A stretch of 22,676 bases of DNA from positions 1-22,676 of the IMG/VR virus record IMGVR_UViG_3300025759_000756. One strand, given 5' to 3'. A model generated the notes under the pieces. The model searched no databases and was not told the origin of the DNA. It worked only from the letters and a program-made list of their open reading frames with translations. The translations under genes and the position numbers were made by a program. Positions 2,868-21,668 of the stretch are shown here, piece after piece (positions within the stretch are counted from its first letter, which is position 1; each line of letters opens with the position of its first letter). Source of the DNA: a virus.

Positions 2868-3191
2868 ATGGCACCAAGAAATAAAAGAGGCGAACGTACA
2901 GGTCGCAAGGAGGACGGTACAAAGGTCGTTCTTCCCGGTTCATCTAAGGGGGCAAGGCCAGTAAAAGGCAAATTCCCCGTCCCCGGAAAGAAACGCCCCG
3001 GAAAGACTCAGCCGGGTAAGCGTAATCCTAAATTGGACGTAAAATTTCCCGTCCCCGGAAAGAAACGTAAACCAAAAAAACCGGGAACACCCGTCATTGG
3101 TCCGGCAAAAGTACTTCCAGTAAAAGGAAAATTTCCCGTCCCCGGAAAGAAACGCCCCGGAAAGAAACGTCCCGGAAAGACCCTTTTTTAA
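2868..3191 (+). CDS. Lys/Pro/Gly repeat protein (KFPVPGKKR repeats)
   Basis: 107 residues with a strong ribosome site (AAAGGAG, 2854-2860) before ATG 2868. After an RGERTGRKEDG head the protein is built from repeats: PVKGKFPVPGKKRPGK at residues 31-46 and again at 84-99, a shorter KFPVPGKKRK at 59-68, and extra PGKKRPGK units at the C-terminus. It is strongly basic, almost without acidic residues after residue 17 and presumably disordered. I do not recognise a family. A nucleic-acid-condensing or packaging-related role is an inference from charge only; the strong ribosome site suggests abundant synthesis. Confidence 0.7.
   Translation: MAPRNKRGERTGRKEDGTKVVLPGSSKGARPVKGKFPVPGKKRPGKTQPGKRNPKLDVKFPVPGKKRKPKKPGTPVIGPAKVLPVKGKFPVPGKKRPGKKRPGKTLF
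2958..3164 (+). repeat. 48-bp direct repeat inside the basic repeat gene
   Basis: Bases 2958-3005 and 3117-3164 match at 46 of 48 positions, the two changes being synonymous (GGC/GGA, TTC/TTT). A shorter partial copy lies between them at about 3042-3068 and shares the TTTCCCGTCCCCGGAAAGAA core. Confidence 0.85.
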
Positions 3192-3219: not shown

Positions 3220-3699
3220 ATGATAGCAGAAACCCTTGCGGGTATTGCACTAGTAAAAAGTGCCGTAGACGGTATTAAATCTGCAATTGGAACAGCCAAA
3301 GATGTGAGTGAGGTTGCGGGGCACATTGACAACCTTCTTACTGGCGAAAAACAAGTCCAACAACAACGGGCTAAAAAGTCTGGAACTAGCATAGGCGACC
3401 AGTTCGGTATCAAGTCGGTTGCACAAGAAGTTATCGATGCACGGCTCGCCCAAGAACAAGTCAACGAAATGCGAAACCTCGTTGACATGAGGTTCGGTCC
3501 CGGAACGTGGCAAAGCATAGTCGATGAACGTGCACGACGCATACAAGAAGCAAAAGAAGCAGAACGACAAGCTAGAATAAAAGCGCAGCAAGAGCACGAG
3601 GAGTTCGTCGAAGGCTTGAAACAATCTGCTTTAGTTAGCCTAGTTGTAGCAATAGCAGCGGGTTTATTATTTGCAGCTATTGCCCTTCTTCCGAAATAG
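3220..3699 (+). CDS. Membrane-anchored coiled-coil phage protein
   Basis: 159 residues. The N-terminus is an Ala/Val/Ile-rich amphipathic helix (1-25), followed by a Gln-rich linker and a long charged helix with coiled-coil character (about 100-134, ARRIQEAKEAERQARIKAQQ). A single C-terminal membrane segment follows (about 136-157, SALVSLVVAIAAGLLFAAIA). Similar proteins occur beside lysis or virion genes in marine phages without known function. Topology could suit an inner-membrane spanin-like or a virion membrane protein, but the anchor is C-terminal, unlike a normal i-spanin. The ribosome site is weak (GAGAAAAACAA). It is the last gene before the second promoter. Confidence 0.65.
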   Translation: MIAETLAGIALVKSAVDGIKSAIGTAKDVSEVAGHIDNLLTGEKQVQQQRAKKSGTSIGDQFGIKSVAQEVIDARLAQEQVNEMRNLVDMRFGPGTWQSIVDERARRIQEAKEAERQARIKAQQEHEEFVEGLKQSALVSLVVAIAAGLLFAAIALLPK

Positions 3700-3700
3700 C

Positions 3701-3729
3701 TTGACTAAATTGAATTTTTAGTCTATAAT
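3701..3729 (+). promoter_or_regulatory. Sigma70-type promoter for the tail and structural block
   Basis: TTGACT (5 of 6 to TTGACA) at 3701-3706 and a perfect TATAAT at 3724-3729, again separated by 17 AT-rich bases. Transcription would start near 3736, just before the GGAAGGGG ribosome site of the gene at 3749. It begins immediately after the upstream stop codon. Confidence 0.78.
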
Positions 3730-3748
3730 AAGTTGGAAGGGGATTAAC

Positions 3749-3949
3749 ATGGACAAACTTGCAATAGACGCTCTTCGTCACACCTATGAATCAAAAAAGA
3801 AGACAGCAGAATATGTTTTTAAAAACGCTAAAAATGACATTATGGCTATGGACAAGGCTGTTAAAGATTGGTCTGAAGCGCATTACCGCCTATGTACCCT
3901 TGATTGGCTTGAAGATGACTATGACATCCGCCCGTCGTTATTTGATTAA
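3749..3949 (+). CDS. Hypothetical 66-aa charged protein
   Basis: ATG 3749 follows the promoter and the GGAAGGGG site at 3735-3742. The 66 residues are largely helical, Lys/Asp/Ala-rich in the first half (SKKKTAEYVFKNAKNDIMAM) and acidic at the end (LEDDYDIRPSLFD). No membrane segment, cysteine cluster or known motif is seen. It is the first gene of the transcript that leads into the tail genes, and its 3' end overlaps the next small gene. Function unknown. Confidence 0.65.
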   Translation: MDKLAIDALRHTYESKKKTAEYVFKNAKNDIMAMDKAVKDWSEAHYRLCTLDWLEDDYDIRPSLFD

Positions 3950-4052
3950 ATATGTTGGCTGGGGTTTGCTCTATTGCGGCAAGCCCTTTACCTCTGTAGG
4001 CGACTGGTTCTGGAAGTTGCACCGCAAAGTTTTGAACTGGGATAGAAAATAG
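3915..4052 (+). CDS. Small aromatic, basic protein overlapping its neighbour (45 aa)
   Basis: An open frame extends upstream to 3786, but the plausible start is ATG 3915 or ATG 3921 (GAAG just upstream), giving 43-45 residues: MTSARRYLIKYVGWGLLYCG followed by KPFTSVGDWFWKLHRKVLNW. The central stretch is hydrophobic and aromatic with basic flanks, like short membrane-peripheral phage proteins. The first 35 bases overlap the upstream gene in another frame. Its TAG at 4050-4052 shares a G with the GTG start of the next gene, which supports it as a real coupled gene. Function unknown. Confidence 0.5.
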   Translation: MTMTSARRYLIKYVGWGLLYCGKPFTSVGDWFWKLHRKVLNWDRK

Positions 4053-5606: not shown

Positions 5607-6206
5607 GTGGCAGATACCGCACTAAACTCCGCTACATATGGCGTAGGCGTTTACGGAACTGCAAAGTACGGACGCATTGAAATTGTTGTCTTCAATCTTG
5701 ATGCTGCTACTGCAACAGGAAGTGTTGGTAGTCTTACCGTAAACATTAATAAAGATATTTCCGGGGTTAGCGCAACAGGCGCAATTTCTCCTGTAGTTGC
5801 TGGCGGATTTGAGATTGACATTAGCGAAGTTATTTCGACTGGTGTCGGTGCTACGGGTTCAGTAGGCACGGTTCAATCTAACATAGATGAGAAGCCTAGC
5901 GGCGTATCTGCAACAGGCACTATCGGAACCCCACAACCCATCGTTAGCTTCTCTGTATCTGTATCTGGTGTCGGTGCAGTAGCTACGTTAGGAAGCGTAG
6001 AGGCCCAGACTACTGAACCTCTGGGGAGTGTTAACGCAACAGGCGCAGTTGGTACGCTAATCCTACACACAACAGCAGGACTTTCAGGGGTTCAGGGGAC
6101 GTTCTCCGTAGGAACTGGAACGTACTCAGGAGTGCAGTTTGATTACAATGCGGTTCGTGAACTATATGACAGGCGGCGCACCATCAATATAGACAGAGCA
6201 GCCTGA
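5607..6206 (+). CDS. Repeat-built virion protein (ATGxVGT repeats)
   Basis: 199 residues from GTG 5607, with AAGGA at 5594-5598 eight bases upstream. After an N-terminal TYGVGVYGTAKYG segment the middle consists of about seven repeats of a roughly 20-23-residue unit centred on G-V-x-A-T-G-x-V-G-T: residues 36-45, 53-64, 79-90, 99-110, 121-132, 141-152 and 161-171. The C-terminus (QFDYNAVRELYDRRRTINID) is charged and non-repetitive. Such repeats suggest stacked beta elements. A surface or fibre-like virion role is inferred. The TGA overlaps the next ATG (TGATG). Confidence 0.65.
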   Translation: MADTALNSATYGVGVYGTAKYGRIEIVVFNLDAATATGSVGSLTVNINKDISGVSATGAISPVVAGGFEIDISEVISTGVGATGSVGTVQSNIDEKPSGVSATGTIGTPQPIVSFSVSVSGVGAVATLGSVEAQTTEPLGSVNATGAVGTLILHTTAGLSGVQGTFSVGTGTYSGVQFDYNAVRELYDRRRTINIDRAA

Positions 6207-6732: not shown

Positions 6733-7413
6733 ATGGCATATGATTATTTAAGCTTGACCAATGATGTTGCCAAACGCCTAAACGAAACGCAACTTACCTC
6801 TGCGAACTTTGCTTCAGCTATAGGGTTTTATAGTGCAATCAAAGAAGCCGTAAACTCTTCTATCCGTCACATTAATCAGGCACACTTCGGTTGGTCATTT
6901 AATCATAACAAGTATGAACAAACCTTGACTGCCGGAGTTACGCGGTATCCAATTCCGACTCAAGCTAAGTATGTCGATTTTGATACGTTTCGTGTTCGGC
7001 GTGACACTACTCTGGGTATCGGTCGCGCAGAAAATTTAACACTGATAAGCTATGATGAATACGTAGATAGATACATCGATCAGGAAGATGAAACCAACGT
7101 GGCTTTAGGTGCTGCTCCTGAATTCGTATTTCGCACACAAAACGGTGAGTTTGGTGTAGTTCCTATGCCTGACAAAGCCTATCAAGTTGATTTTGAATAC
7201 TTTATGGACCCTGTCGATTTGATTCTTCCCACTGACGTTCCAACTGTTCCTGAACGTTTTCGTCATGTAATTATTGATGGGGCTATGTACTACGCATACA
7301 TGTTTCGTGACAACATCGAAATGGCGTCTATTTCTCAAAACAAGTTTGACAGTGGGATTAAACAGATGAGAACAATTAACGTCAATGAAAACATATATAT
7401 GAGAGCACGATAA
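6733..7413 (+). CDS. Head-tail adaptor (tail tubular protein A / SU10-adaptor-like)
   Basis: 226 residues. A helical N-terminus (LTNDVAKRLNETQLTSANFA, then KEAVNSSIRHIN) leads to a beta core with RYPIPTQAKYVDFDTFRVRR, EFVFRTQNGEFGVVPMPDKA and a helical end (FRHVIIDGAMYYAYMFRDNI). This order is characteristic of podovirus adaptors such as T7 gp11-like and SU10-type proteins, which form a ring under the portal. Length is close to the family norm of about 200. The next gene is the large nozzle-like protein, the usual partner. Assignment is by pattern and context. Confidence 0.75.
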   Translation: MAYDYLSLTNDVAKRLNETQLTSANFASAIGFYSAIKEAVNSSIRHINQAHFGWSFNHNKYEQTLTAGVTRYPIPTQAKYVDFDTFRVRRDTTLGIGRAENLTLISYDEYVDRYIDQEDETNVALGAAPEFVFRTQNGEFGVVPMPDKAYQVDFEYFMDPVDLILPTDVPTVPERFRHVIIDGAMYYAYMFRDNIEMASISQNKFDSGIKQMRTINVNENIYMRAR

Positions 7414-9601: not shown

Positions 9602-11929
9602 ATGGGTACAGGTTACACACGGAACGACACCCCAAACAACATTGCAGACGGAAACGTCATCAACGCTTCGGATATCGATGGCGAATACGATGCTATTGAA
9701 GCTGCCTTTAATGAAACTACAGGCCACACTCACGATGGCACGGCAGCAGAAGGTGCGCCTATTACCGTCTTGGGTCCGGTTCAAGATTTTATTGCAAGTG
9801 CCACAGAAATTAAACCGAAGACCACGAACACGCTAGATATCGGAACCAATTCTTTGCAGTTCAAGGATATGTATCTAGACGGAACCGCCTACATTGACGG
9901 TTTGGGCGAAGATATCTTGGTTGCAACCGACAAGAAAGTACAGTTCCGGGACACAGCCCTGTTTATCAACTCTAGCGCGGATGGACAACTAGACATTGAT
10001 GCTGATGCAGAGTTAGAAATTACAGCACCAATAGTAGATATAAATGCGTCTACCTCTGTAAACATTAGTAATGATTTAAAATTAGATAGCGACTCTGCTA
10101 TTTTATCTTTTGGTGCAGATAGTGAAATCACTGTCACACACGAACATAACACAGGATTAAAGGCAAAAGCAGCTAATGGGTTTGAATTAAATCTACAAAC
10201 TAGCCATGACTCTATAGAGGCTACAGATGTGATAGGTAAAATTACATTTAATGCTCCTGATGAAGCTAATGGTACAGATGCAATACTAGACGGTGCTACT
10301 ATTGAGGCTATAGCTGAAGACACATTTGATGCCTCCACAAATACCACTGCACTTGTATTTAAAACAAACACATCCGGTGCAGCAACAGAACGTATGCGTA
10401 TTAAAGGTGACGGTGCAATCGTCATGGATACGCAGGTTGACATTGACAATATAACTATAGATGGCAACACTATTAGCAGCACCGACACTAACGGTGACAT
10501 TAACATATCACCAGATGGTACTGGTACTGTTGTAATTGATACAGACCTAGACGTTGATAATATAAATGTAAATGGTAATACTGTTTCATCAACTGATACT
10601 AACGGGGATATTAATCTGTCACCTAATGGTACTGGTACTGTTGTAATTGATACAGACCTAGACGTTGATAATATAAATGTAAATGGTAATACTGTTTCAT
10701 CAACTGATACTAACGGGGATATTAATCTGTCACCTAATGGTACTGGTACTGTTGTAATTGATACAGACCTAGACGTTGATAATATAAATGTAAATGGTAA
10801 TACTGTTTCATCAACTGATACTAACGGGGATATTAATCTGTCACCTAATGGTACTGGTACTGTTGTAATTGATACAGACCTAGACGTTGATAATATAAAT
10901 GTAAATGGTAATACTGTTTCATCAACTGATACTAACGGTGATATTAATCTGTCACCTAATGGTACAGGCACTGTAGTTATTAACACTGACCTTGACGTTG
11001 ACAACATCAATGTCAATGGTAACACCATCATCAGCACAGACACCAATGGCAACATTGCTCTGACACCTAATGGTACAGGCGAGGTGGACATAAGCAAAGT
11101 TGACATCGACAGTGGCACAATTGATGGCACAACTATTGGTGCGTCAAGTGCGGCGGCTGGTACATTTACAACGCTTACTGCAAGTGGCGACCTCACTGTT
11201 GACACCGACACCCTTTACGTTGACAGCACGAATAATCGGGTAGGAGTAGGGACGACTTCGCCTAGTGCGAACCTTGAAATAGACGCTGGCTCTGCTAGTG
11301 GCACACACTTGCAAATTACTACAACTGGCTCTGGTCACAACTTTGACATGGTTGATTCAAGCAGCACAGCCCGTATTCGTAATGCGAGTGGTATTCTTCG
11401 TATAGGTGCCGACCACAATGATGAATCAGCGGGTAGCGCGGTACGGTTTGACGTTGACGGTTCTGAAATTGCTAGGCTTACAACGGATGGCCTAACCTTC
11501 AACGGTGACACAGCCGCCGTAAATGCGCTGGATGACTATGAGGAAGGGACTTGGACACCAAGAATAAGGGGAGGCGGCGAACCGGGTACACTAATTACTG
11601 GCAATGGCGTATACACAAAAATTGGCAATAAGGTGACTGTTTCACTTACTTTTGATAATAAAAACATGACTGGTTATAGCGGTGCTGTAAGCGTTGATTC
11701 ATTTCCGTTTGCTCAAGTATCTGGTTTTAATGCGGGTGGGGCGACGGGTATGATTTACGCTTTGCTGGGTGCTAATGCTAGTAGAGAACACACAGCTCAT
11801 TTTATGGCTAATAATTCCACTATTTTGAATCTTTATGACATAAACGCTGCTACGGGATGGACGCAATCACAGCATGGCGCACCCGCTGGCATGTATTTGT
11901 GGACAACGTTTACTTACTTCACATCGTAA
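9602..11929 (+). CDS. Tail fibre protein with 37-residue tandem repeats
   Basis: 775 residues. The N-terminus (GTGYTRNDTPNNIADGNVIN, then DGEYDAIEAAFNETTGHTHDG) is the standard virion-attachment start of marine phage fibres. The shaft has LGTNSLQFKDMYLDGTAYID-like elements, then six 37-residue units (residues 269-490), four of them identical. The distal part contains NNRVGVGTTSPSANLEIDAG and the DDYEEGTWTPRI module, followed by about 100 residues that are probably the receptor-binding tip. No C-terminal intramolecular chaperone motif is seen. It should recognise the host surface. Codon and base composition shift inside the gene, suggesting mosaic origin of the shaft. Confidence 0.85.
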   Translation: MGTGYTRNDTPNNIADGNVINASDIDGEYDAIEAAFNETTGHTHDGTAAEGAPITVLGPVQDFIASATEIKPKTTNTLDIGTNSLQFKDMYLDGTAYIDGLGEDILVATDKKVQFRDTALFINSSADGQLDIDADAELEITAPIVDINASTSVNISNDLKLDSDSAILSFGADSEITVTHEHNTGLKAKAANGFELNLQTSHDSIEATDVIGKITFNAPDEANGTDAILDGATIEAIAEDTFDASTNTTALVFKTNTSGAATERMRIKGDGAIVMDTQVDIDNITIDGNTISSTDTNGDINISPDGTGTVVIDTDLDVDNINVNGNTVSSTDTNGDINLSPNGTGTVVIDTDLDVDNINVNGNTVSSTDTNGDINLSPNGTGTVVIDTDLDVDNINVNGNTVSSTDTNGDINLSPNGTGTVVIDTDLDVDNINVNGNTVSSTDTNGDINLSPNGTGTVVINTDLDVDNINVNGNTIISTDTNGNIALTPNGTGEVDISKVDIDSGTIDGTTIGASSAAAGTFTTLTASGDLTVDTDTLYVDSTNNRVGVGTTSPSANLEIDAGSASGTHLQITTTGSGHNFDMVDSSSTARIRNASGILRIGADHNDESAGSAVRFDVDGSEIARLTTDGLTFNGDTAAVNALDDYEEGTWTPRIRGGGEPGTLITGNGVYTKIGNKVTVSLTFDNKNMTGYSGAVSVDSFPFAQVSGFNAGGATGMIYALLGANASREHTAHFMANNSTILNLYDINAATGWTQSQHGAPAGMYLWTTFTYFTS
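10406..11071 (+). repeat. 111-bp tandem repeat array in the tail fibre gene
   Basis: Six units of 111 bp (37 codons). The four central units (10517-10627, 10628-10738, 10739-10849, 10850-10960) are identical except for one synonymous change in the last (GGG to GGT). The flanking units at 10406-10516 and 10961-11071 encode related but diverged sequence. Reading frame is kept throughout. Confidence 0.95.
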
Positions 11930-11948
11930 CCTGATTGGATTATCAGGT
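11929..11948 (+). other. Short hairpin after the tail fibre gene
   Basis: ACCTGAT 11929-11935 pairs with ATCAGGT 11942-11948 around a 6-base loop, beginning inside the stop codon. No T run follows, so it is not a convincing terminator; it may protect or punctuate the fibre message. Confidence 0.35.
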
Positions 11949-11974
11949 AGTCAGTCCATCCATAGGAGATAAAA

Positions 11975-12226
11975 ATGGCACTAACAGAAGAAACAATCCA
12001 AGACAAAATCGAAATTGTAGGTGACTACAAGCACGTCCAAGTTCGCACAGCTACTATTATTAAACGTGACGGCGTTGAAATTAGTCGTAGTTTTCATAGG
12101 CACACTGTAGCACCAGACGCTGACATTACTGGCGAAAGCGCAGAGGTTCAAGCTGTCTGTGCGGCTGTGCATACACAGGCAGTCAAGGATGCTTATGCGG
12201 CGCATTTGGCTGAACAAGGTGAGTAA
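11975..12226 (+). CDS. Hypothetical protein following the fibre gene (marine phage family)
   Basis: 83 residues after a TAGGAGA ribosome site (11963-11969). The N-terminal part is beta-like (KIEIVGDYKHVQVRTATIIK, then RDGVEISRSFHRH) and the C-terminal part is a helix (QAVCAAVHTQAVKDAYAAHL). I recognise this as a recurrent small protein beside tail fibre genes in marine phages, with no known function. The position would suit a fibre-assembly or fibre-associated factor, but that is inference only. One Cys, no membrane segment. Confidence 0.65.
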   Translation: MALTEETIQDKIEIVGDYKHVQVRTATIIKRDGVEISRSFHRHTVAPDADITGESAEVQAVCAAVHTQAVKDAYAAHLAEQGE

Positions 12227-12249
12227 AACTCCGGCAGGGTGGTAATACA

Positions 12250-12474
12250 ATGGAAATGACCAGTCTCATAGATGTACTTATCGGCCTTGTCGTGGCTGGT
12301 CTTGCATGGTTTTTGTCAGAACAAAACAAAGAAACAAAACGACTAGGCATACTACTGAACAAAACACGTGAAGAATACGCAACTCGCATGGAACTGCGCG
12401 ACGACATGAGTAAGGTTATGGACGCTTTGCACCGGGTTGAAGATAAGCTAGATAAAGTATTGAGTAGGGATTAA
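12250..12474 (+). CDS. Small membrane-anchored coiled-coil protein
   Basis: 74 residues with AGGGTGG upstream (12236-12242). One N-terminal membrane segment (about residues 5-22, SLIDVLIGLVVAGLAWFL) is followed by a charged helix with heptad character to the C-terminus (SKVMDALHRVEDKLDKVLSR). This topology, one anchor and a periplasmic or cytoplasmic coiled coil, occurs in i-spanins and in small marine phage proteins next to fibre genes. No partner lipoprotein gene is visible, so spanin is only one possibility; a holin-like protein is another. Confidence 0.6.
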   Translation: MEMTSLIDVLIGLVVAGLAWFLSEQNKETKRLGILLNKTREEYATRMELRDDMSKVMDALHRVEDKLDKVLSRD

Positions 12475-12476
12475 GT

Positions 12477-13814
12477 ATGGCAACAATTACCACAGACCAA
12501 CAGTTACAACAGGAAGTGGGTGCCCTTGCAGGTGCAGGTATTCCTGCTAATGTTCCGGCTCAACAGACCGTACAAACGGACGAACTACAGACTACTGCTG
12601 GCACACAGTTGAAACCGACGGGTCAACAAGCTGCTACTGTCACTGCTGATCAAACAAGCTTAAAAGCCCCTATCCCTACTCCTTCTTCTTCTGGAGTAGG
12701 CCAAATTGCCGGAACTGACCTTGCTACCGTAACCCCGCAGATTGGTACGATGCAAGCAGCCCAGATCACACAGCCTGTACAAGTTGATATGACTGGCGTA
12801 CAAGCTGGTCCATCTGCAGGTGCTATCGGTACTGCCGCAACGCAACAGCTAGATCCGCAAGCTACCACTCAGTATCAGCTTGGTCAATTGATGAACAGCA
12901 TCCAGCAAGGCCAGCCGATGCCCCCGTGGGCGGCTCCTGCAGTTCGTAAGATTGGTGGCATCATGCAAGCACGTGGCTTGGGCGGCTCTAGTATGGCTGC
13001 AGCGGCTATGACACAAGCTGTGCTAGAATCTGGTATCACGATTGCAGCCGACGACGCAAAGAAGTACGCAACTATCCAGCTTGCTAATTTGAACAACGAA
13101 CAGCAGATGGCCCTTTCCAACGCCGCAACTTTTGCCGCAATGGACAAGGCTAACTTGAATGCCCGTTTGACTGCTGCCGTAACCAACGCACAGTCGTTGC
13201 TTGCCACTGAAACAAAGAACCTCGACGCACAGCAGCAAGCCAATACACTTTCATACAATGCTTTGACTCAGGGTATCTTCAAGGATGCGGCAGAAGAAAA
13301 CGCCCGTCAGCAGTTCAATGCAAAGAATGAACTACAAGTCGAACAATTCTTTGCGGAGTTGGGTTCGCAGGTTGAAACAGCCAATGCAAATCGGATGGCT
13401 GCAATGGAACAGTTCAACGCTGGTGAACAAAATGCAATGAACCAGTTCAATTCTGCAATGGCTGATAACCGACAGAAGTTCAACGCCAATATGCAGTTTG
13501 CTGTGGATCAATCGAACACACAGTGGCGCAGACAAGTCAACACGGCTAACACTGCTGCCCAGAACGAAGCAAACCGACAAAACGTACAAAACGCCTTTAA
13601 CGCATCACAAAACGCACTAAATAATCTGTGGCAACAATACAGGGATAACGCAGCTTGGAATTTCCAAAAAGGTGAATCGCAGCTTCAGCGACAGCATGAA
13701 ATCGGTATCATGGCTATGGAATTTGCCAACAGCGAGAAGCTATATGATAAGCAGCAAAAGGATAACTTGGCTGCAGGTATAGGTAACTGGATTGCTGCTT
13801 GGCTTGCAAGTTAG
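12477..13814 (+). CDS. Probable internal virion protein, Gln/Ala-rich coiled coil
   Basis: 445 residues. Residues 1-150 are Gln/Thr/Pro-rich and low in complexity. A conserved-looking block near 151-213 contains WAAPAVRKIGGIMQARGLGG, SSMAAAAMTQAVLESGITIA and the YATIQLANLNNEQQMAL repeat-like end. The remainder is a long helix with repeated Q-F-N-A elements (about 285-385: RQQFNAK, MEQFNAGEQ, MNQFNSA, RQKFNAN, QNAFNAS). The middle block resembles virion structural proteins I know from marine phages. It begins the internal-protein block and is likely a component ejected with or organising the DNA (inference). Confidence 0.65.
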   Translation: MATITTDQQLQQEVGALAGAGIPANVPAQQTVQTDELQTTAGTQLKPTGQQAATVTADQTSLKAPIPTPSSSGVGQIAGTDLATVTPQIGTMQAAQITQPVQVDMTGVQAGPSAGAIGTAATQQLDPQATTQYQLGQLMNSIQQGQPMPPWAAPAVRKIGGIMQARGLGGSSMAAAAMTQAVLESGITIAADDAKKYATIQLANLNNEQQMALSNAATFAAMDKANLNARLTAAVTNAQSLLATETKNLDAQQQANTLSYNALTQGIFKDAAEENARQQFNAKNELQVEQFFAELGSQVETANANRMAAMEQFNAGEQNAMNQFNSAMADNRQKFNANMQFAVDQSNTQWRRQVNTANTAAQNEANRQNVQNAFNASQNALNNLWQQYRDNAAWNFQKGESQLQRQHEIGIMAMEFANSEKLYDKQQKDNLAAGIGNWIAAWLAS

Positions 13815-13825
13815 GGAAATAAGAT

Positions 13826-14305
13826 ATGTCTTTTAGTCTAGGTAATATGATAAGCACGGCATTTGAATTTGGTAAGGATCTGTTGTTTGGTAGTCCGGCA
13901 GCGGGACCACCGGGGTTGAGTGGTAAGGCAGCAACTAGCGGCCTCATCGGGTCGGGCGGAAATTTGAGCGGCTTTATAAAAAAGGGTGCACAGATGTACT
14001 TGAAGGGTACGGGTGTCGGAGATCAAGGTGGTTACTTTCAAGCACCTGACATCAACATACGACAACGTCCCCGCTCTGTACAAGAATTGACTCGTGGTCA
14101 AGCTGTTGGTCAAGTTCAACTCAGCGACATTCAGCGTACCTTGTATTCTATGCCGGAAGTACAACGGGCTGCACAGATGATGCAAGCATCTAACAATAGT
14201 CACATTGCAAACCTTCGTGCCGCAACAGGCGTAGAACAGACTATTCGTCAGGGACGCAAGACACTTGCTACTGAAACGCCCGAACTACGGGAGATAGATG
14301 TATAA
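13826..14305 (+). CDS. Hypothetical virion protein, Gly-rich (159 aa)
   Basis: 159 residues after a GGGAAATAAGAT leader. The first 60 residues are Gly/Ser-rich with short hydrophobic runs (NMISTAFEFGKDLLFG, SGLIGSGGNLSGF). The C-terminal half is helical and charged (RSVQELTRGQAVGQVQLSDI, QRTLYSMPEVQRAAQMM). No known motif is evident. Its stop overlaps the next start (TAATG), and it lies between two probable internal virion genes, so a virion or assembly role is inferred. I do not recognise a family. Confidence 0.6.
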   Translation: MSFSLGNMISTAFEFGKDLLFGSPAAGPPGLSGKAATSGLIGSGGNLSGFIKKGAQMYLKGTGVGDQGGYFQAPDINIRQRPRSVQELTRGQAVGQVQLSDIQRTLYSMPEVQRAAQMMQASNNSHIANLRAATGVEQTIRQGRKTLATETPELREIDV

Positions 14306-14868
14306 TGAAAATAGATCCGTCACAAGCCCCTCGTGGTAGCATAGAAGCAAAAGACCCGTTTGCAATGGCACCTCCGGGATACGGCCTAACGTCTGACAAT
14401 CAACAGTGGCCGTGGGGACAACCCCCACAGATCGTTGATCCGCAACAGGCTTTGCAAACAGCTATAACTAAGCTAAACCGTAAAAAGAACAAGCGTGAAC
14501 TGATGAAGCTGTTGATTGTCGGCGCGTCGGTTGAGGTGCTTGTCGAAGGATACATTTTTCAGGCATTCTCCGAAGGTCAATTCACACCAGATGTCGGTAT
14601 GCTGATCAAAGGACCGCTTGCAATGGTCATTGCGGGTATGGCTGAAGAGGAAGGTATTCCGTATCGTTTCTTTGAAAACGACAACGAACTTGAAAAAGAC
14701 GAAATGGACGATGCAACCTTCTTCCGCATGATGAAGCAGAACAATCCGGGTATGTTTTCTGTTATCCGTGAAAAGATTAACGAAGACATTCGTAGTGGCT
14801 ACATTCCAGAAGAGCCACAAGAAGAAAACTTTATGAACATGAAACCGACTATGGAAGAGGCGGAGTAA
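14305..14868 (+). CDS. Marine phage structural-type protein (187 aa)
   Basis: 187 residues from ATG 14305, coupled to the preceding gene. The segment PGYGLTSDNQQWPWGQPPQI then VDPQQALQTAITKLN, followed by ELMKLLIVGASVEVLVEGYI and FTPDVGMLIKGPLAMVIAGM, follows the pattern GxSLTxxPGNxPWExPPxxxDPxEAL...G.pVE.LV..I.....D..LLI.P of a family common in cyanophages. In cyanophages it is encoded among virion genes without a defined function. The hydrophobic helices look like packing helices, not a signal. The C-terminus is acidic. Confidence 0.68.
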   Translation: MKIDPSQAPRGSIEAKDPFAMAPPGYGLTSDNQQWPWGQPPQIVDPQQALQTAITKLNRKKNKRELMKLLIVGASVEVLVEGYIFQAFSEGQFTPDVGMLIKGPLAMVIAGMAEEEGIPYRFFENDNELEKDEMDDATFFRMMKQNNPGMFSVIREKINEDIRSGYIPEEPQEENFMNMKPTMEEAE

Positions 14869-14871
14869 GCT

Positions 14872-17079
14872 ATGGGTATTGGCGCAGCGTTTGCTACGGG
14901 CCTTGTAAAAGGCTTCACACAGAACATCCAAGAAGAAAAGGCACGTCGGTTAGCCGAACAGCAGAAGATTGACGCATTCGAACAGACTGCTCTCCAGTCG
15001 GTTTTGACGGGCAAGGCAACCAAATCGGGCTATGCCTCAGTGTCCAATCTTATCAAATCTGCACAACAGCAGATAGATGAGCGTCCCAGTATCGACATCT
15101 TTGGTCGTGCAACCGACGGAATTGATATAGATTTTGCAAGCTTGCAAGGCACCCTAGAAGATGCCACAGAAGACTATATTATGATTGGCTCTGTAAAATT
15201 GGATGTTCCTGAAAAATACTTTGACCCTTCGTCTGACGCTCAAGACAAAGCCAACATGTTTATGGATTCCTTGAACAACCAAATGGCTACCCCTGCTTCA
15301 CGAGCAGAATTTTTGGGGAAGTTTAAAACTGAAGAGGATGTTCGTTCTCTTGACGCAGCCTATCGTGGAAATCTTGGACAGTGGCTTAGAACCCGTACTT
15401 ATGATCAAGAAGGCAATAAAACGGTAAACATTGACCCATCAACTAGTTTGGCAATTCACATTCCTATGGAAGAATTCTTAGGTTGGGGAGTGGATAAAGA
15501 ATACGAAATTGCTGTTGAAGCAGCGTCTAGAAAGTTACAGCCGGGAGCAACAGGCCTTCCACCCAACTATGCTTTGCTGCCCGTCGGTTTAGGGGCTAAC
15601 AAGGGTTCTGTAGCTGTAAAATTAGAAGACTTGGGATTCAAAGAACAAGATCAAATAGAAGGTCTTGAAGGTCTTGCTAAATTTCAAGGTATGGATACAC
15701 AGAAATTTATCTATAACTATGCGGCACAGTTTGATAATCAAGTAGACTTTATAAAGGGCTTGTCTCATTCAGTTAAACTGTTCAATATGGGTGCGGCTGA
15801 ACCTAAAAGTATGGATGACAACTATGCAGTTGGTGAATACTTGATGTCTCAATCTGACTTAAAAGATGATGCCCTTGCTCGTGCGTATGCAATGACACCA
15901 TTTGTTGTTGATCTTAAAAGCCCACACGAACGCACTTTAGCAAGAGTAGGTATGGAATCATCTAAGACTATGTCGTTCAAAGAAGAGTTTGAAAAGCTGA
16001 CAGGTCAGAAGTTAGACGCTTTTCAAGAAAGATCAGCAAGCCTGTTTAAAGCCCGTAAGAATCTTACAGGACTTCTTGAAAAGATAGATGCAACAGGCTT
16101 AAAAGTAGAAGGTGTCGTTGCCAATACATTTCAAACGGTATACGGCTTCTTTGGTGAAACTGGTACTATAGACCAGATAAAAAACTTGGTGGTAGATCGT
16201 AACGGTTATGCAGATGAAATATCTGCCACAAAAATAGATGCATTTATGGAAAATGAACTTAAAGGTGTCTCCAACGACGTAGCTGCAGCCCGTACTCTTG
16301 CATTTATTGCAGCAGGTGACTTGGCCCGTGCCGAAGATCCTAGTGGCAGACTCTCTGACCAAGACTTTATACGTAACTATAGAAAGCTTGGTATCAATGC
16401 TTCTGGTACGGTAGAGAACCAAATTGCAGCTATCAAAACCGTCCTAGATGAAGTTAACATGAAGTACCGTGAAGTCGAGGTCTTGAATCAGATTGTATCT
16501 CGCGGTATAGGTGGTAACCTAACTCCGGGGGATCGTAAGCTTTTGCAAGGCGATGCTCGTGCAAAGTCCTTTGTTCGGCTGTATTATGATTCTGGCGGAC
16601 AAGCGGAAGAAACACAAGCACCACCTGTTCTACCTAGCTTTGAGTCGGTTACAACAAACACTGATCGGTATGAGCCATATTCTTTGTACGTTGGAAAAGA
16701 TGGTGGAACAGTGTACAGAGATAAACAGACAAGTGCTTTGATTATCACATCCAACGGTGCCGTTACACAGCAGTTTGCAAAAGGCGATAGCACAAGACAA
16801 GCATTTACTAGCGGGGCACTTGTTAGAAATAGTGCTGGTGCTCCCGGCGGTCCAGCCCCCGCTCCTGCTCCAGCCCCCGCTCCTGCTCCAGCCCCTGCTG
16901 GTGCCCAACCAACTCCATCACCACAACCTGCTCCTGCTACTGGCACAATAGAATACCTAGATGTTGCAGGAAAAGAATCAGGAAACAACCAACAAGGGTA
17001 CACCTTAGAGGGTTATCCCGGTAAGTACAAGAAGATGACTCGCCCAGACGGAACTCAATACTTTGAACCCATGAAATAA
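14872..17079 (+). CDS. Large internal virion-type protein with Ala-Pro linker (735 aa)
   Basis: 735 residues starting three bases after the previous stop. Residues 1-40 form a Gly/Ala-rich helix followed by a charged coiled coil (KGFTQNIQEEKARRLAEQQK). Residues 40-600 are a mixed alpha/beta region without a recognised enzyme motif. A linker made almost only of Ala and Pro lies near 659-690, followed by a 45-residue tail domain (TIEYLDVAGKESG, GYTLEGYPGKYKKMTRPDG). Size, position between structural genes and pairing with the 1526-residue protein suggest an internal or DNA-ejection protein as in T7-like phages, by context and not homology. Confidence 0.65.
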   Translation: MGIGAAFATGLVKGFTQNIQEEKARRLAEQQKIDAFEQTALQSVLTGKATKSGYASVSNLIKSAQQQIDERPSIDIFGRATDGIDIDFASLQGTLEDATEDYIMIGSVKLDVPEKYFDPSSDAQDKANMFMDSLNNQMATPASRAEFLGKFKTEEDVRSLDAAYRGNLGQWLRTRTYDQEGNKTVNIDPSTSLAIHIPMEEFLGWGVDKEYEIAVEAASRKLQPGATGLPPNYALLPVGLGANKGSVAVKLEDLGFKEQDQIEGLEGLAKFQGMDTQKFIYNYAAQFDNQVDFIKGLSHSVKLFNMGAAEPKSMDDNYAVGEYLMSQSDLKDDALARAYAMTPFVVDLKSPHERTLARVGMESSKTMSFKEEFEKLTGQKLDAFQERSASLFKARKNLTGLLEKIDATGLKVEGVVANTFQTVYGFFGETGTIDQIKNLVVDRNGYADEISATKIDAFMENELKGVSNDVAAARTLAFIAAGDLARAEDPSGRLSDQDFIRNYRKLGINASGTVENQIAAIKTVLDEVNMKYREVEVLNQIVSRGIGGNLTPGDRKLLQGDARAKSFVRLYYDSGGQAEETQAPPVLPSFESVTTNTDRYEPYSLYVGKDGGTVYRDKQTSALIITSNGAVTQQFAKGDSTRQAFTSGALVRNSAGAPGGPAPAPAPAPAPAPAPAGAQPTPSPQPAPATGTIEYLDVAGKESGNNQQGYTLEGYPGKYKKMTRPDGTQYFEPMK
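16852..16905 (+). repeat. 18-bp tandem repeat encoding an Ala-Pro linker
   Basis: CCAGCCCCCGCTCCTGCT occurs twice exactly (16852-16869 and 16870-16887), followed by a diverged third unit (16888-16905). It encodes alternating Pro and Ala inside the 735-residue protein. Confidence 0.85.
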
Positions 17080-17087
17080 GGTTGACA

Positions 17088-20000
17088 ATGGCTTTAGATT
17101 CTACATTACCCGTCGGTTTCCAAGAGCCGATAGACGCAACACCAACAGGCATGGAGTCGGTTCCGTCACCAGAAGAGGCACGGACCGTACAAACGACAAC
17201 AGTTGATTTGCCTACGCTTGCAGCCGAAGATGTAGCTGCACAACGTGGCACGTCTAGATCAGCGCAAGATCTATCGAACGAATTTCGTTCCATAATGAAC
17301 AGCAAGTCCTACGATGAGATTGCTGCTTCCGGTGTTGAAATAATCGGCGATGAAGTCCTGACACCTAGTCGGATTCAAGAAATCAATGCCGACCCCGGAT
17401 TGTACGGCGCACTTGAATATGAATACATCACGAATAAGTCAACACCACAACAAGATCCGGCAAAACCTGCTGTGCCATTCTCTACGCCCGACTACACAGA
17501 AGTCCGGTTACCTGAATGGACAGACGATTACAGCGCGGACTTTAAGTCTATTCTTACTGACGCGGTAAAAAACCGACAGAAGGTAGCTGCCCTAATATCT
17601 GAAACCAACCCAAATCTTACACGTCGGGGACAAGACTTAATTCTTTCGCAGTTTAAGACGGGAGATACCCTGACTGAGTTTCTTCGGGCTGGTGAGGATT
17701 TGCCGGGTGAACTTGCCCGATTGCCTTTGATTGTAGGTATGGCAACCAGTGCAGCGGGGGCTTTGAAAGATGCTGCGGGTGAAGCCATGTTTGGCGACAG
17801 AGATTTTGATAATACGTTTATAGAATCCTTTGGCAAAAGGATGGGACAAAAAGGGTGGATGCGCGAATACGACAGAGCACTGAATGATACTGTAGTCTTA
17901 GATTCTAGTCGTGCATCTTTGAAGCGCGAATATAAAAAGAAATTCATAGCTGAGTACGGCGAAGATGCTTGGCGCGAAGACCATCAGGTTCCTTTGATTG
18001 AGGTTGTAGATGGCAAGGCACAATACAAGCTAGATGAAAATGGTAACGTCGAGTATAGGGATGTCGGCTTGGACGATGCCTCTGCAGACGGTATCTTGGA
18101 ACTTGCCTACAAAGAATTACCTGCAAGTAGTAAAGCGGCTTTGTACTTTTCTGAACAGGCTCCGTTTACTGCTGTCGGCACTGTTATCGCTGTTTCCCGT
18201 GCATCAAAAACAGTAGGGGCTGTTCAGAATGCACGTAAGTCTAACACAATAAAGTACGCAGATAAAACCGACTACGAAGTGTATCAGTCCCTTCGTGCTG
18301 AGAAAAGTTCAGGATTTCTTGCTCCCCTTAAAGGGGCATTTAATTTTGCTACGGCTGGTAACGTAAGAGCACGGGGTCGCCTTACAATGGGCGAACAGTT
18401 GACCTCGCATCGGGCTACTATCTCCCGCTATGAAGATGACATAACCGCAATAAATAAACGTTTAGACGATCCCAACCTAGATGATGTTAAACGCATAGAA
18501 CTAGGAAAGCAGCGCGACGTTCTTAAAACAAGTCTGCGTAGTTATCAGTTACGTAAGGGTACGGGCACAATCAACAGTCCATACATACGTAGTGTAGCAA
18601 GAGATGATGTTTTAATTTCTACTGCAGTCGGTTTAGGTGCAGCCGCACTACCAACAGACTTTACTGCATTCGGTGTAGATGGCGACACAATAGTCGGTAT
18701 TACAGCACCTATATTTGCACCGGCTGTATCACGCCTTGCGGTTTGGGGCGGTAGCAAAGCCATCAATACGATTACCGATAACACCATTAAGGATGTCGGT
18801 TTGATGTTGGAAAATTCAGACTTCCTTCCGTTCATCACACAAGGCACTCTTGTAAAAGGCGACGAAGCAAAGATGCGTTCTGTTATGACTGAGATGGGAC
18901 GTGCTGTAACCGACCAAGATGTAGCTGCCTTCACTCAGTTAAACAGATTATTTAATCAGATGACACCTGAGTACAGGGAAAAAGCCTACCAGTCTCTTCT
19001 CGACTACAACAAAATGATCAACGGTTTTCGTGATGATATGTTTGCAGTCGGGATGTCAGATGAAGCAATTGCAGAAGCCCTGCCTACTTTGCATTTGACT
19101 GTAGCACAAGCGACAGGTATTGCACCGCTTCTTGCGTTTCAAAAAACTGCAGTTCAAGATTTGAATGCGGCTAATCTTACCAAAAAGATGCCAGAAATCA
19201 TGGAAACCATCGGGGCAGAGGAAGCTACCCTAGAAGGTATGACAACAAACCTGAATCTCCTAAAGGATTTGATCCGTAAGAATTCGGGTGTAGACCTAGA
19301 TTCGAACGTCGGTTTACAGCAGTTGATGAACGACACTGCAGAAAGCATTGCATTCCAACAAGGCAACTTGAACAAAAAGAAACAGGAGATGTACCTTGCC
19401 CTTCAAAGCTACGTAGAAAATGTAGGTGTAACAGAAGGCATAGACACTGACACAATTGATAAGCTTGTAGAATTAGAAACCATCTTGGATACAGGAGAAG
19501 TTGCAGGTATTATCACCAGAGGTGAACGTGTAGTAAAAATGCACAATCGCATAATCAAGTCCGCAGAAGAAGAACTACAGGCCATAAAAGATCTGTCTTC
19601 TGATATGGATACGAATACATTTACTAAAGAATTTCGTCGCGTCGCAGACATCATGTTCGATGCAGAGTATGGCAGACGTAAAGCCCTTGCGTCTGCTGAA
19701 TACCGCAAGGTCGATGATATGGTTGGCGAAGATACCCTCGACATGACAGACGTTATGCGTCGGTTAGTTGACATGACTGAAGACATGAAGGACAAACCGC
19801 TGTCTGTAGTGTTCGGTGGTATGAAGGGATTCTTTAATAAGGCAGGTGGTAAAGACCTTCACAATGCTATGCGGACTATGGCACGTCGTGGTTTGCTTGC
19901 AGAATTCGGTGAAGATACTATCACGGCTCTGATTACACAGAGACGCGAAGTAGATGGCTTAGAAAACTTTGGCTACATCGACTTGGCTTTGGAACTGGCT

Positions 20001-21668
20001 GAAAATAGTGCAGAGCCTCTTCAGTTCTTTGCAGCCAAGCCCTCTGAAGTTGAAAATGTCTACAGGTACTTCCGCGACAGAGCCATTACCTTGAGCCGAC
20101 AGTCCAAGACTCCTTCACGCTTGGAAGCCGACATTGCTCAAGAATTTAAAGACACTATCGATGAAGTGTATAGTAACTACGATCCTGCAGTACGTCAACA
20201 GATTACAAAAGCACGTCAGACCTATCAGGATAACGTTGGTAACAGAGTTGATAAAGGACGCTACGCACAGGTGGTCCGTGACGGACGGGAACGCAAAAGA
20301 CCTGCAGACGAAAGCCGTAGCTACTATTACCCAGATGAAAACAAAGCACCTGAAGCACCCTTCGTCAAGATTGCAAACCTTGCTGTTAAGATTACAGAAG
20401 AAGCTGATCCAGCAGAAAGCTTGCAAGCTATTGCAAAAGAGCGGGATCGCATTATGTATCTTCTAGGTGGCACAAAGGGTGCCGATGGTAGGTTGGTATT
20501 TGATTTCCGCGATCCAGTACAAAAGCGAAATGCGTACATGGCGCAGCAGATGCTTGAAACCATGATTAGTAAAAAGATATCAGACAAAATGGCAAGGGAT
20601 GCGGATTTGTCTATTGAAATCTTGAACGAAGGCATGGACGTAGCAAACAAAAAAATCACGTACAACTTTAGCAAAGCTATGCGTATCGTTGATATCGAAA
20701 ACGAACTGCGGGTCGGTTACATCGACGAACAAGGTGTGTTCCAAAGCGCAGGTGGCGTCGAATTAGACGTTATCAAAAACCGTGCGGCAAGTTGGGACAA
20801 AATTATGAAAACCAACAAGGATGCACAAGTCGAATACGAAGCTATTCGTAAACGGGTTGACGTAACCTCTGGTGTACTTGGTATCGCACAAAAGAAAGAG
20901 TTGGATGCAATCAACGAAACGATTGGTCAGCTTTCACAAAACACAAAGCTAATAAACAATCCCAAAGCCTTCTATTCAGAGTTCTTTGAAAACGCCACCC
21001 CAGAAAGCTACAACAATACTATAGCTGAATTTGTAGCGCAGAGTGGCGGAAAGCTGACAGAAGATCAAGTACGCACAAGCATGAAGTACATGTACCTACG
21101 TGGTATCTTTGAACGCGGGGGTGTGCAGACAGGCTTAGATGCCCCATCGGGTCGGTTGCGTGGTGACGTAACAAAGATCAATACGTTTATTGATGACATA
21201 TCTGATCCTAGACGGGCTGCAGTTATGGAAGCAGTATTAGGAACAGATCATGTGGATCAGCTTCAACGTATCGCTCGTTGGTCTAGCTATAGCATGGGAG
21301 ATGCCTTAGACTTCCGCGCAGGTCGGGCAACGAAGGGCATGTCCCTAGACTCTGTATTCTCTCGTGTCTTTAACATTGCACGGGGAATGGTCAGTCCCCT
21401 GTATGTTGGTACTGAAGCAGCTACCCGTATGATGCTGGAGAATAAACAGAATCTAATCAACTTGGCTCTTAGCGACAGACAAGCTGCAGAGTTTATGGCA
21501 AACGTTCTAACCAACCCAGAACGTTTGACTGAGTTAGATATCAAAACATTTAGCTTACGTGTACAAAACTATCTTGCACGAGGAGCAGCAGAAGGGGCGG
21601 TTAAGATCCCGTCTGTTCAAGAACGCTACGGTATTACTGAGGAGAACAATGATGAAACAGTACAATAA
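17088..21668 (+). CDS. Very large internal virion-type protein (1526 aa)
   Basis: ATG 17088 is chosen because AAGG (17078-17081) is six bases upstream; a TTG at 17082 is the only other start. The 1526-residue protein has a Pro/Thr-rich N-terminus. Hydrophobic stretches occur near residues 210-230 (PLIVGMATSAAGAL), 350-372 and 507-555 (VLISTAVGLGAAALP, DTIVGITAPIFAPAVSRLAV). Long charged helices follow to about 1400. The C-terminal region near 1424-1473 (FNIARGMVSPLYVGTEAATR, then NLINLALSDRQAAEFMA) resembles the end of giant marine phage virion proteins. No transglycosylase or peptidase motif is seen. A channel-forming ejection protein in the sense of T7 gp16 is inferred. Confidence 0.7.
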   Translation: MALDSTLPVGFQEPIDATPTGMESVPSPEEARTVQTTTVDLPTLAAEDVAAQRGTSRSAQDLSNEFRSIMNSKSYDEIAASGVEIIGDEVLTPSRIQEINADPGLYGALEYEYITNKSTPQQDPAKPAVPFSTPDYTEVRLPEWTDDYSADFKSILTDAVKNRQKVAALISETNPNLTRRGQDLILSQFKTGDTLTEFLRAGEDLPGELARLPLIVGMATSAAGALKDAAGEAMFGDRDFDNTFIESFGKRMGQKGWMREYDRALNDTVVLDSSRASLKREYKKKFIAEYGEDAWREDHQVPLIEVVDGKAQYKLDENGNVEYRDVGLDDASADGILELAYKELPASSKAALYFSEQAPFTAVGTVIAVSRASKTVGAVQNARKSNTIKYADKTDYEVYQSLRAEKSSGFLAPLKGAFNFATAGNVRARGRLTMGEQLTSHRATISRYEDDITAINKRLDDPNLDDVKRIELGKQRDVLKTSLRSYQLRKGTGTINSPYIRSVARDDVLISTAVGLGAAALPTDFTAFGVDGDTIVGITAPIFAPAVSRLAVWGGSKAINTITDNTIKDVGLMLENSDFLPFITQGTLVKGDEAKMRSVMTEMGRAVTDQDVAAFTQLNRLFNQMTPEYREKAYQSLLDYNKMINGFRDDMFAVGMSDEAIAEALPTLHLTVAQATGIAPLLAFQKTAVQDLNAANLTKKMPEIMETIGAEEATLEGMTTNLNLLKDLIRKNSGVDLDSNVGLQQLMNDTAESIAFQQGNLNKKKQEMYLALQSYVENVGVTEGIDTDTIDKLVELETILDTGEVAGIITRGERVVKMHNRIIKSAEEELQAIKDLSSDMDTNTFTKEFRRVADIMFDAEYGRRKALASAEYRKVDDMVGEDTLDMTDVMRRLVDMTEDMKDKPLSVVFGGMKGFFNKAGGKDLHNAMRTMARRGLLAEFGEDTITALITQRREVDGLENFGYIDLALELAENSAEPLQFFAAKPSEVENVYRYFRDRAITLSRQSKTPSRLEADIAQEFKDTIDEVYSNYDPAVRQQITKARQTYQDNVGNRVDKGRYAQVVRDGRERKRPADESRSYYYPDENKAPEAPFVKIANLAVKITEEADPAESLQAIAKERDRIMYLLGGTKGADGRLVFDFRDPVQKRNAYMAQQMLETMISKKISDKMARDADLSIEILNEGMDVANKKITYNFSKAMRIVDIENELRVGYIDEQGVFQSAGGVELDVIKNRAASWDKIMKTNKDAQVEYEAIRKRVDVTSGVLGIAQKKELDAINETIGQLSQNTKLINNPKAFYSEFFENATPESYNNTIAEFVAQSGGKLTEDQVRTSMKYMYLRGIFERGGVQTGLDAPSGRLRGDVTKINTFIDDISDPRRAAVMEAVLGTDHVDQLQRIARWSSYSMGDALDFRAGRATKGMSLDSVFSRVFNIARGMVSPLYVGTEAATRMMLENKQNLINLALSDRQAAEFMANVLTNPERLTELDIKTFSLRVQNYLARGAAEGAVKIPSVQERYGITEENNDETVQ

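Follow-up and report, generated by a model that had tools for sequence, protein, structure and literature searches.

The tail-fibre gene of an uncultured marine phage holds four tandem, almost identical copies of a 111-bp unit in its shaft region, and this array very probably arose when a single 37-residue module of the shaft was recently amplified in tandem within a fibre that is both modular and mosaic. The window, that is, the whole stretch of 22,676 nucleotides that was analysed, contains the array at 10517-10960, and five related contigs hold the same unit only once, in the same order between the same kinds of neighbouring units.

The tail-fibre gene and its genome context

The fibre gene extends from 9602 to 11929 on the forward strand and encodes a protein of 775 amino acids; it is recognized by its single open frame, its similarity to Roseobacter phage CRP-345 and the gene order. 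Residues 1-275 share 66.5% identity with the 'putative tail fiber protein' of CRP-345 (gp50, MZ892990), which is encoded at the same genomic position, and an HTHDG-type N-terminus can be read directly in the window sequence, whereas the shaft and tip of gp50 differ from those of the window fibre and gp50 has no match to the 37-residue unit. The two tail genes directly upstream stand in the same order as in CRP-345, the 722-aa tail protein that precedes the fibre matches CRP-345 at 57.5%, and a member of the SU10 adaptor family is encoded before the fibre gene at 6733-7413. The conserved N-terminal attachment part and the upstream adaptor and tail genes are those of a CRP-345-like marine phage tail fibre, and the window virus is a marine phage whose closest cultured relative is CRP-345. 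This phage is among the isolates in a paper on HMO-2011-type phages (PMC9038755), and as no replication genes were identified in the 22.7-kb window, an IMG/VR metagenome contig with the structural-gene half only, the window virus is no more than a possible member of the HMO-2011-type group.

Among protein families, PHROG 15769 (function unknown) matches five stretches of the window fibre, the best of them in the array (E 1e-23), which is a repeat match and no proof of full-length homology. The C-terminal Peptidase_S74 domain (endosialidase chaperone) had no match in the window fibre, though 8 of 18 fibres in the alignment possess it. Weak Pfam matches to Bactofilin, BiPBP_C and LEA_2 were set aside; the window fibre itself has only that to BiPBP_C, below the cut-off.

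Repetitive sequence is found also elsewhere in the window. A small, very basic protein at 2868-3191 has repeated KRPGK motifs with a 15-bp DNA repeat, positions 5607-6206 encode loosely repeated SATGSVGT-like motifs, and a Pro-Ala repeat stretch with 18-bp units lies at 16851-16899 in a 735-aa protein. Two other contigs carry tandem 66-bp repeats upstream of the fibre gene, L019 at 174-655 (up to 7.3 copies, 86% matches), which by position is near the counterpart of window 5607-6206, and L092 at 1780-2430 (about 2 copies, 96%). The 1528-aa protein encoded at 17082-21668 matched none of 50,697 phage records and no Pfam family.

Four copies of one unit between two different ones

A sequence-only reading of this DNA had described four tandem 111-bp units that differ at one synonymous base, and both statements are borne out, with a perfect-period tract (10515-10965) that reaches slightly beyond the limits given there. 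The four copies of this core unit, here called C, lie on the forward strand at 10517-10627, 10628-10738, 10739-10849 and 10850-10960; copies 1 to 3 are identical to each other (111/111) and copy 4 agrees with them at 110 of 111 positions. The sole mismatch at a lag of 111 is between 10828 and 10939, where a Gly codon reads GGG in the former and GGT in the latter, so that all four copies encode in frame the same 37 residues, GTGTVVIDTDLDVDNINVNGNTVSSTDTNGDINLSPN. Any change by one copy is therefore a frame-preserving step of 37 residues, as had been anticipated. Tandem Repeats Finder assigns the array a period of 111 and a score of 932, and the motif of the copy/copy junction occurs three times in the window and in none of 100 shuffles, which together exclude an origin of the array by chance.

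On both sides the array is bordered by an outer unit of 37 residues, again on the forward strand. The upstream one (unit -1, 10406-10516) agrees with the core at 74 of 111 nucleotides and 24 of 37 residues, the downstream one (terminal unit L, 10961-11071) at 79 of 111 nucleotides and 31 of 37 residues, and 18 of its codons differ synonymously, 6 nonsynonymously. That the outer units encode similar residues by other codons is thus correct, but codon drift in one and the same repeat is not the reason: they are distinct members of the unit family, of older date, and each has its own closest relatives in other phages. The edges of the array at 10515 and 10965 are sharp and the outer units have not been homogenised, which argues against gene conversion acting generally over all six units, a possibility raised earlier alongside tandem amplification.

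Relatives hold the unit once

When IMG/VR was scanned with a degenerate pattern of the core peptide, five contigs had a match, and each of them had just one: L082, L083, L163 (= L085), L164 (= L086) and L165 (= L087). All five have the order outer unit, one C, terminal unit, and their single C units are 97-109/111 identical to the window copies; compared with that of L083, window copy 1 has 108 and copy 4 has 109 identical positions. The terminal unit of the window likewise matches those of L083 (105/111) and L086 (106/111). The comparison of copy number with related phages, which had been proposed as a check, therefore gives C as single in 5 of 5 contigs carrying it and as an array in none, and as C stands alone between outer units in these relatives, with the order unchanged, the array would be a one-to-four amplification of C. 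The contigs L249-L252, which are the closest by their downstream genes, have another kind of fibre and were left out of this copy counting. The relatives of the C-terminal tip in IMG/VR are distant (best 36-43%) and allowed no copy-number comparison, and four metagenome-assembled contigs, obtained when bacterial and archaeal genomes were scanned, added little on copy number.

The single base that differs among the copies gives the array a direction. All five single-C relatives have GGT at the position of 10939, and copy 4 is therefore the ancestral form and the GGG of copies 1-3 the derived one, implying that GGG would have spread through these three copies and that the array arose in at least two steps. 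Another position does not fit a simple amplification as well: C starts with GGA in all single-copy relatives and with GGT in all four window copies, which calls for one extra substitution before the amplification or for a later spread by conversion. It also counts against the amplification account that no conspecific phage was found that differs in the number of C copies.

These synonymous patterns could also be expected if an old four-copy array had been kept alike by gene conversion, as conversion would make synonymous sites identical and would carry the GGA to GGT change into all four copies. Such concerted evolution is nevertheless highly improbable, given that the five relatives have a single C and none has a C array, and that both outer units, with only 74 and 79 of 111 positions shared with the core, escaped any homogenisation. 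Recent tandem amplification accounts for the single-copy relatives, and the recent origin proposed in the sequence-only reading holds in this form.

The junction and the reliability of the copy number

At the copy/copy junction the C end CACCTAAT is joined to the C start GGTACTGGTACTG, and only the 7 bp ATGGTAC are common to this junction and both outer borders. An assembler that works with k-mers much longer than 7 has no means of building this junction if the DNA holds a single copy, and one tandem duplication or more is therefore probably genuine. The longest exact self-repeat is 313 bp at a lag of 111, followed by one of 202 bp at a lag of 222, and as 313 bp exceed ordinary short reads, the exact count of four is not certain.

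An assembly artefact had been considered from the beginning, and it does not easily explain the junction, although it could make the count of four wrong. In its full form it would mean a phage with one or two C units, and an assembler that over-walked a repeat loop or merged two strains. That the window is an IMG/VR metagenome contig would be in line with this, as would a self-repeat whose length exceeds both ordinary short reads and assembly k-mers, and a scan of IMG/VR for a degenerate form of the junction, which may omit records that are very close to the window, gave no further contig. On the other hand, the 7 bp shared with the outer borders do not suffice for a de Bruijn assembler to make up the junction, only copy 4 keeps the ancestral state at its differing base, and the array is in frame, so that an artefact is unlikely.

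A mosaic gene in a variable cassette

A variable fibre cassette extends over 10000-12245; on both sides of it the genome resembles its relatives, whereas the fibre between is different. Up to 10061 the upstream genome is 92.5% identical to L018 (over 3.5 kb), and downstream from about 12245 (12242-15159) it is 88-91% identical to L249-L252, which have no nucleotide match to the fibre region of the window; the proteins of L249-L251 at the place of the fibre are of another type, with GNVTGNVTGN shaft repeats in L250 and L251.

Within the fibre gene the closest contig changes several times. It is L018 from 9602 to about 9840 (90-97%), L032/L031 between about 9840 and 10300 (in most bins at 92-100%), L132/L128 from about 10360 to 10480, and L083/L086 from about 10480 to 11090 (92-100%), and from about 11175 to 11850 there is no close relative among the compared contigs. 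This profile shows a mosaic gene, with segments that come from several lineages. The switch at about 10480 falls within the upstream one of the two outer units. This unit is chimeric, with a 5' part like L128/L132/L070 and a 3' part like L083/L086, and the position of the switch suggests that the repeated units may serve as homology for exchange. Base composition points in the same direction, as the third-position GC is only 0.13 in the core and 0.19 at 10073-10405, in contrast to 0.37-0.49 in the remaining fibre and the tested neighbouring genes (outer units 0.46 and 0.49). The low value makes the core a module with a history of its own, and both 10517-10960 and 10073-10405 may be imported AT-rich segments, of which this composition would be a sign.

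The identity profile, together with the direction given by the five relatives, leads to the following likely history. A fibre segment consisting of outer unit, C and terminal unit was gained by recombination from an L083/L086-like phage, as the profile shows, and C would then have been duplicated in frame at the 7-bp identity between the C borders, presumably by slippage or unequal recombination. A change from GGT to GGG in an upstream copy, followed by further copying, would have led to three GGG copies and one with the ancestral GGT. For the protein this would mean three extra shaft repeats (111 residues), and the simplest consequence would be that the fibre became longer, or that its flexibility changed, between the conserved base and the variable tip.

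The unit family and fibre length

A profile of the 37-residue unit found 208 units in 82 distinct unit sets from IMG/VR fibres. Among 79 distinct fibres, the longest runs in exact 37-aa register comprise one unit in 42, two in 29, three in 5 and four in 2, and only the window has a run of six. Adjacent units in other fibres share on average 73.5 of 111 positions (sd 6.3, maximum 97, n=45), compared with 111 in the window. Of the 208 units, 201 have their closest relative in a different fibre, and units thus come mostly by inheritance or by exchange among phages rather than by local duplication; the remaining 7, which are in three fibres, have their closest relative in the same fibre. Recent duplications therefore seem rare among the 82 related fibres, with the reservation that short-read assemblies tend to collapse such arrays and may hide cases.

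An array of four 37-residue units is present also in the closest upstream relative, L018, at 3590-3976. Its best unit pair agrees at 97 or 102 of 111 positions, depending on how the reading phase of the units is set, and this pair appears to be an older or separate local duplication.

It has been proposed for the window that copy-number change could tune adsorption or host range, and it is plausible that such an array affects fibre length or host range. It is rather doubtful, though, that the array is a contingency locus, i.e. a length switch with frequent copy-number change that is under selection for such tuning. The unit is in frame and the array sits between the conserved N-terminal part and the variable tip, as would suit a length switch, L018 as a close relative has a different four-unit array with two units that are 97-102/111 alike, and there are precedents in the gp37 duplications of T4 and the 1.8-kb tail-fibre duplications of EfV12-phi1. 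Frequent change does not agree well with only three of the 82 fibres having units that are closest within their own fibre, even if collapse may hide cases, nor with a junction that occurs nowhere else in IMG/VR. That the 37-residue unit is a copy-number-variable, recombination-prone spacer that changes fibre length within marine phage populations and is hidden by short-read assembly is quite unlikely.

Shaft structure and comparison with known systems

AlphaFold2 monomer models had a mean pLDDT of 47.7 for the full-length fibre and 60.5 for the array and contained no regular strands. Foldseek with the low-confidence array model gave no match, and there was no credible match to the array among solved structures; matches to designed beta-trefoils were rejected as compositional, as both are repetitive with similar Gly/Asp/Thr content and the alignments are out of the 37-residue register. 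In the aligned fibres, the part after the array has weak profile matches to the Bdellovibrio trimeric fibre protein Bd2133, the family of which is described as phage-tail-fibre-like intertwined trimeric beta-prisms (PMC10769870), and a trimeric rod is thus plausible.

In-frame duplications in tail fibres are known from cultured phages. In T4, duplications in the adhesin gp37 are the subject of Tetart, Repoila, Monod and Krisch (1996, J Mol Biol 258:726), a study cited by its title in PMC9603124, PMC9004378 and PMC6365445; as far as these sources tell, a small tail-fibre protein domain is duplicated in frame as in the window, but in T4 it is a distal adhesin domain with a shown host-range effect, and in the window a shaft unit of an uncultured phage. 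In Enterococcus phage EfV12-phi1, 1.8-kb in-frame fibre duplications arose in 4 of 4 coevolution replicates and in no phage control, and these too are in tandem with several copies and lie upstream of the predicted receptor-binding part; they differ from the window in the size of the unit (111 bp in the window), in their origin in laboratory coevolution and in having been verified by long reads (PMC6365445). A passage in PMC6949934 describes tandem BACON-domain repeats in a crAssphage protein as evolution hotspots, which are tandem domain repeats in a phage protein like those of the window, but of another domain and in another phage group. An in-frame tandem duplication that is absent from relatives, as in fibres of the T4 gp37 and EfV12-phi1 type, is apparently what the window contains. 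The array is a real, recent and lineage-specific amplification of a shaft module, and as such a natural example of a change known from laboratory phages.

Positions 10400-11080 are a defined place at which variation of fibre length in wild phage populations can be gauged, and if the length does not vary there, the array would be an ordinary neutral duplication. The window presents a natural tail-fibre module of an uncultured phage shortly after its amplification, with the ancestral state given by single-copy relatives, and it makes both the exchange and the amplification of modules visible in one gene.
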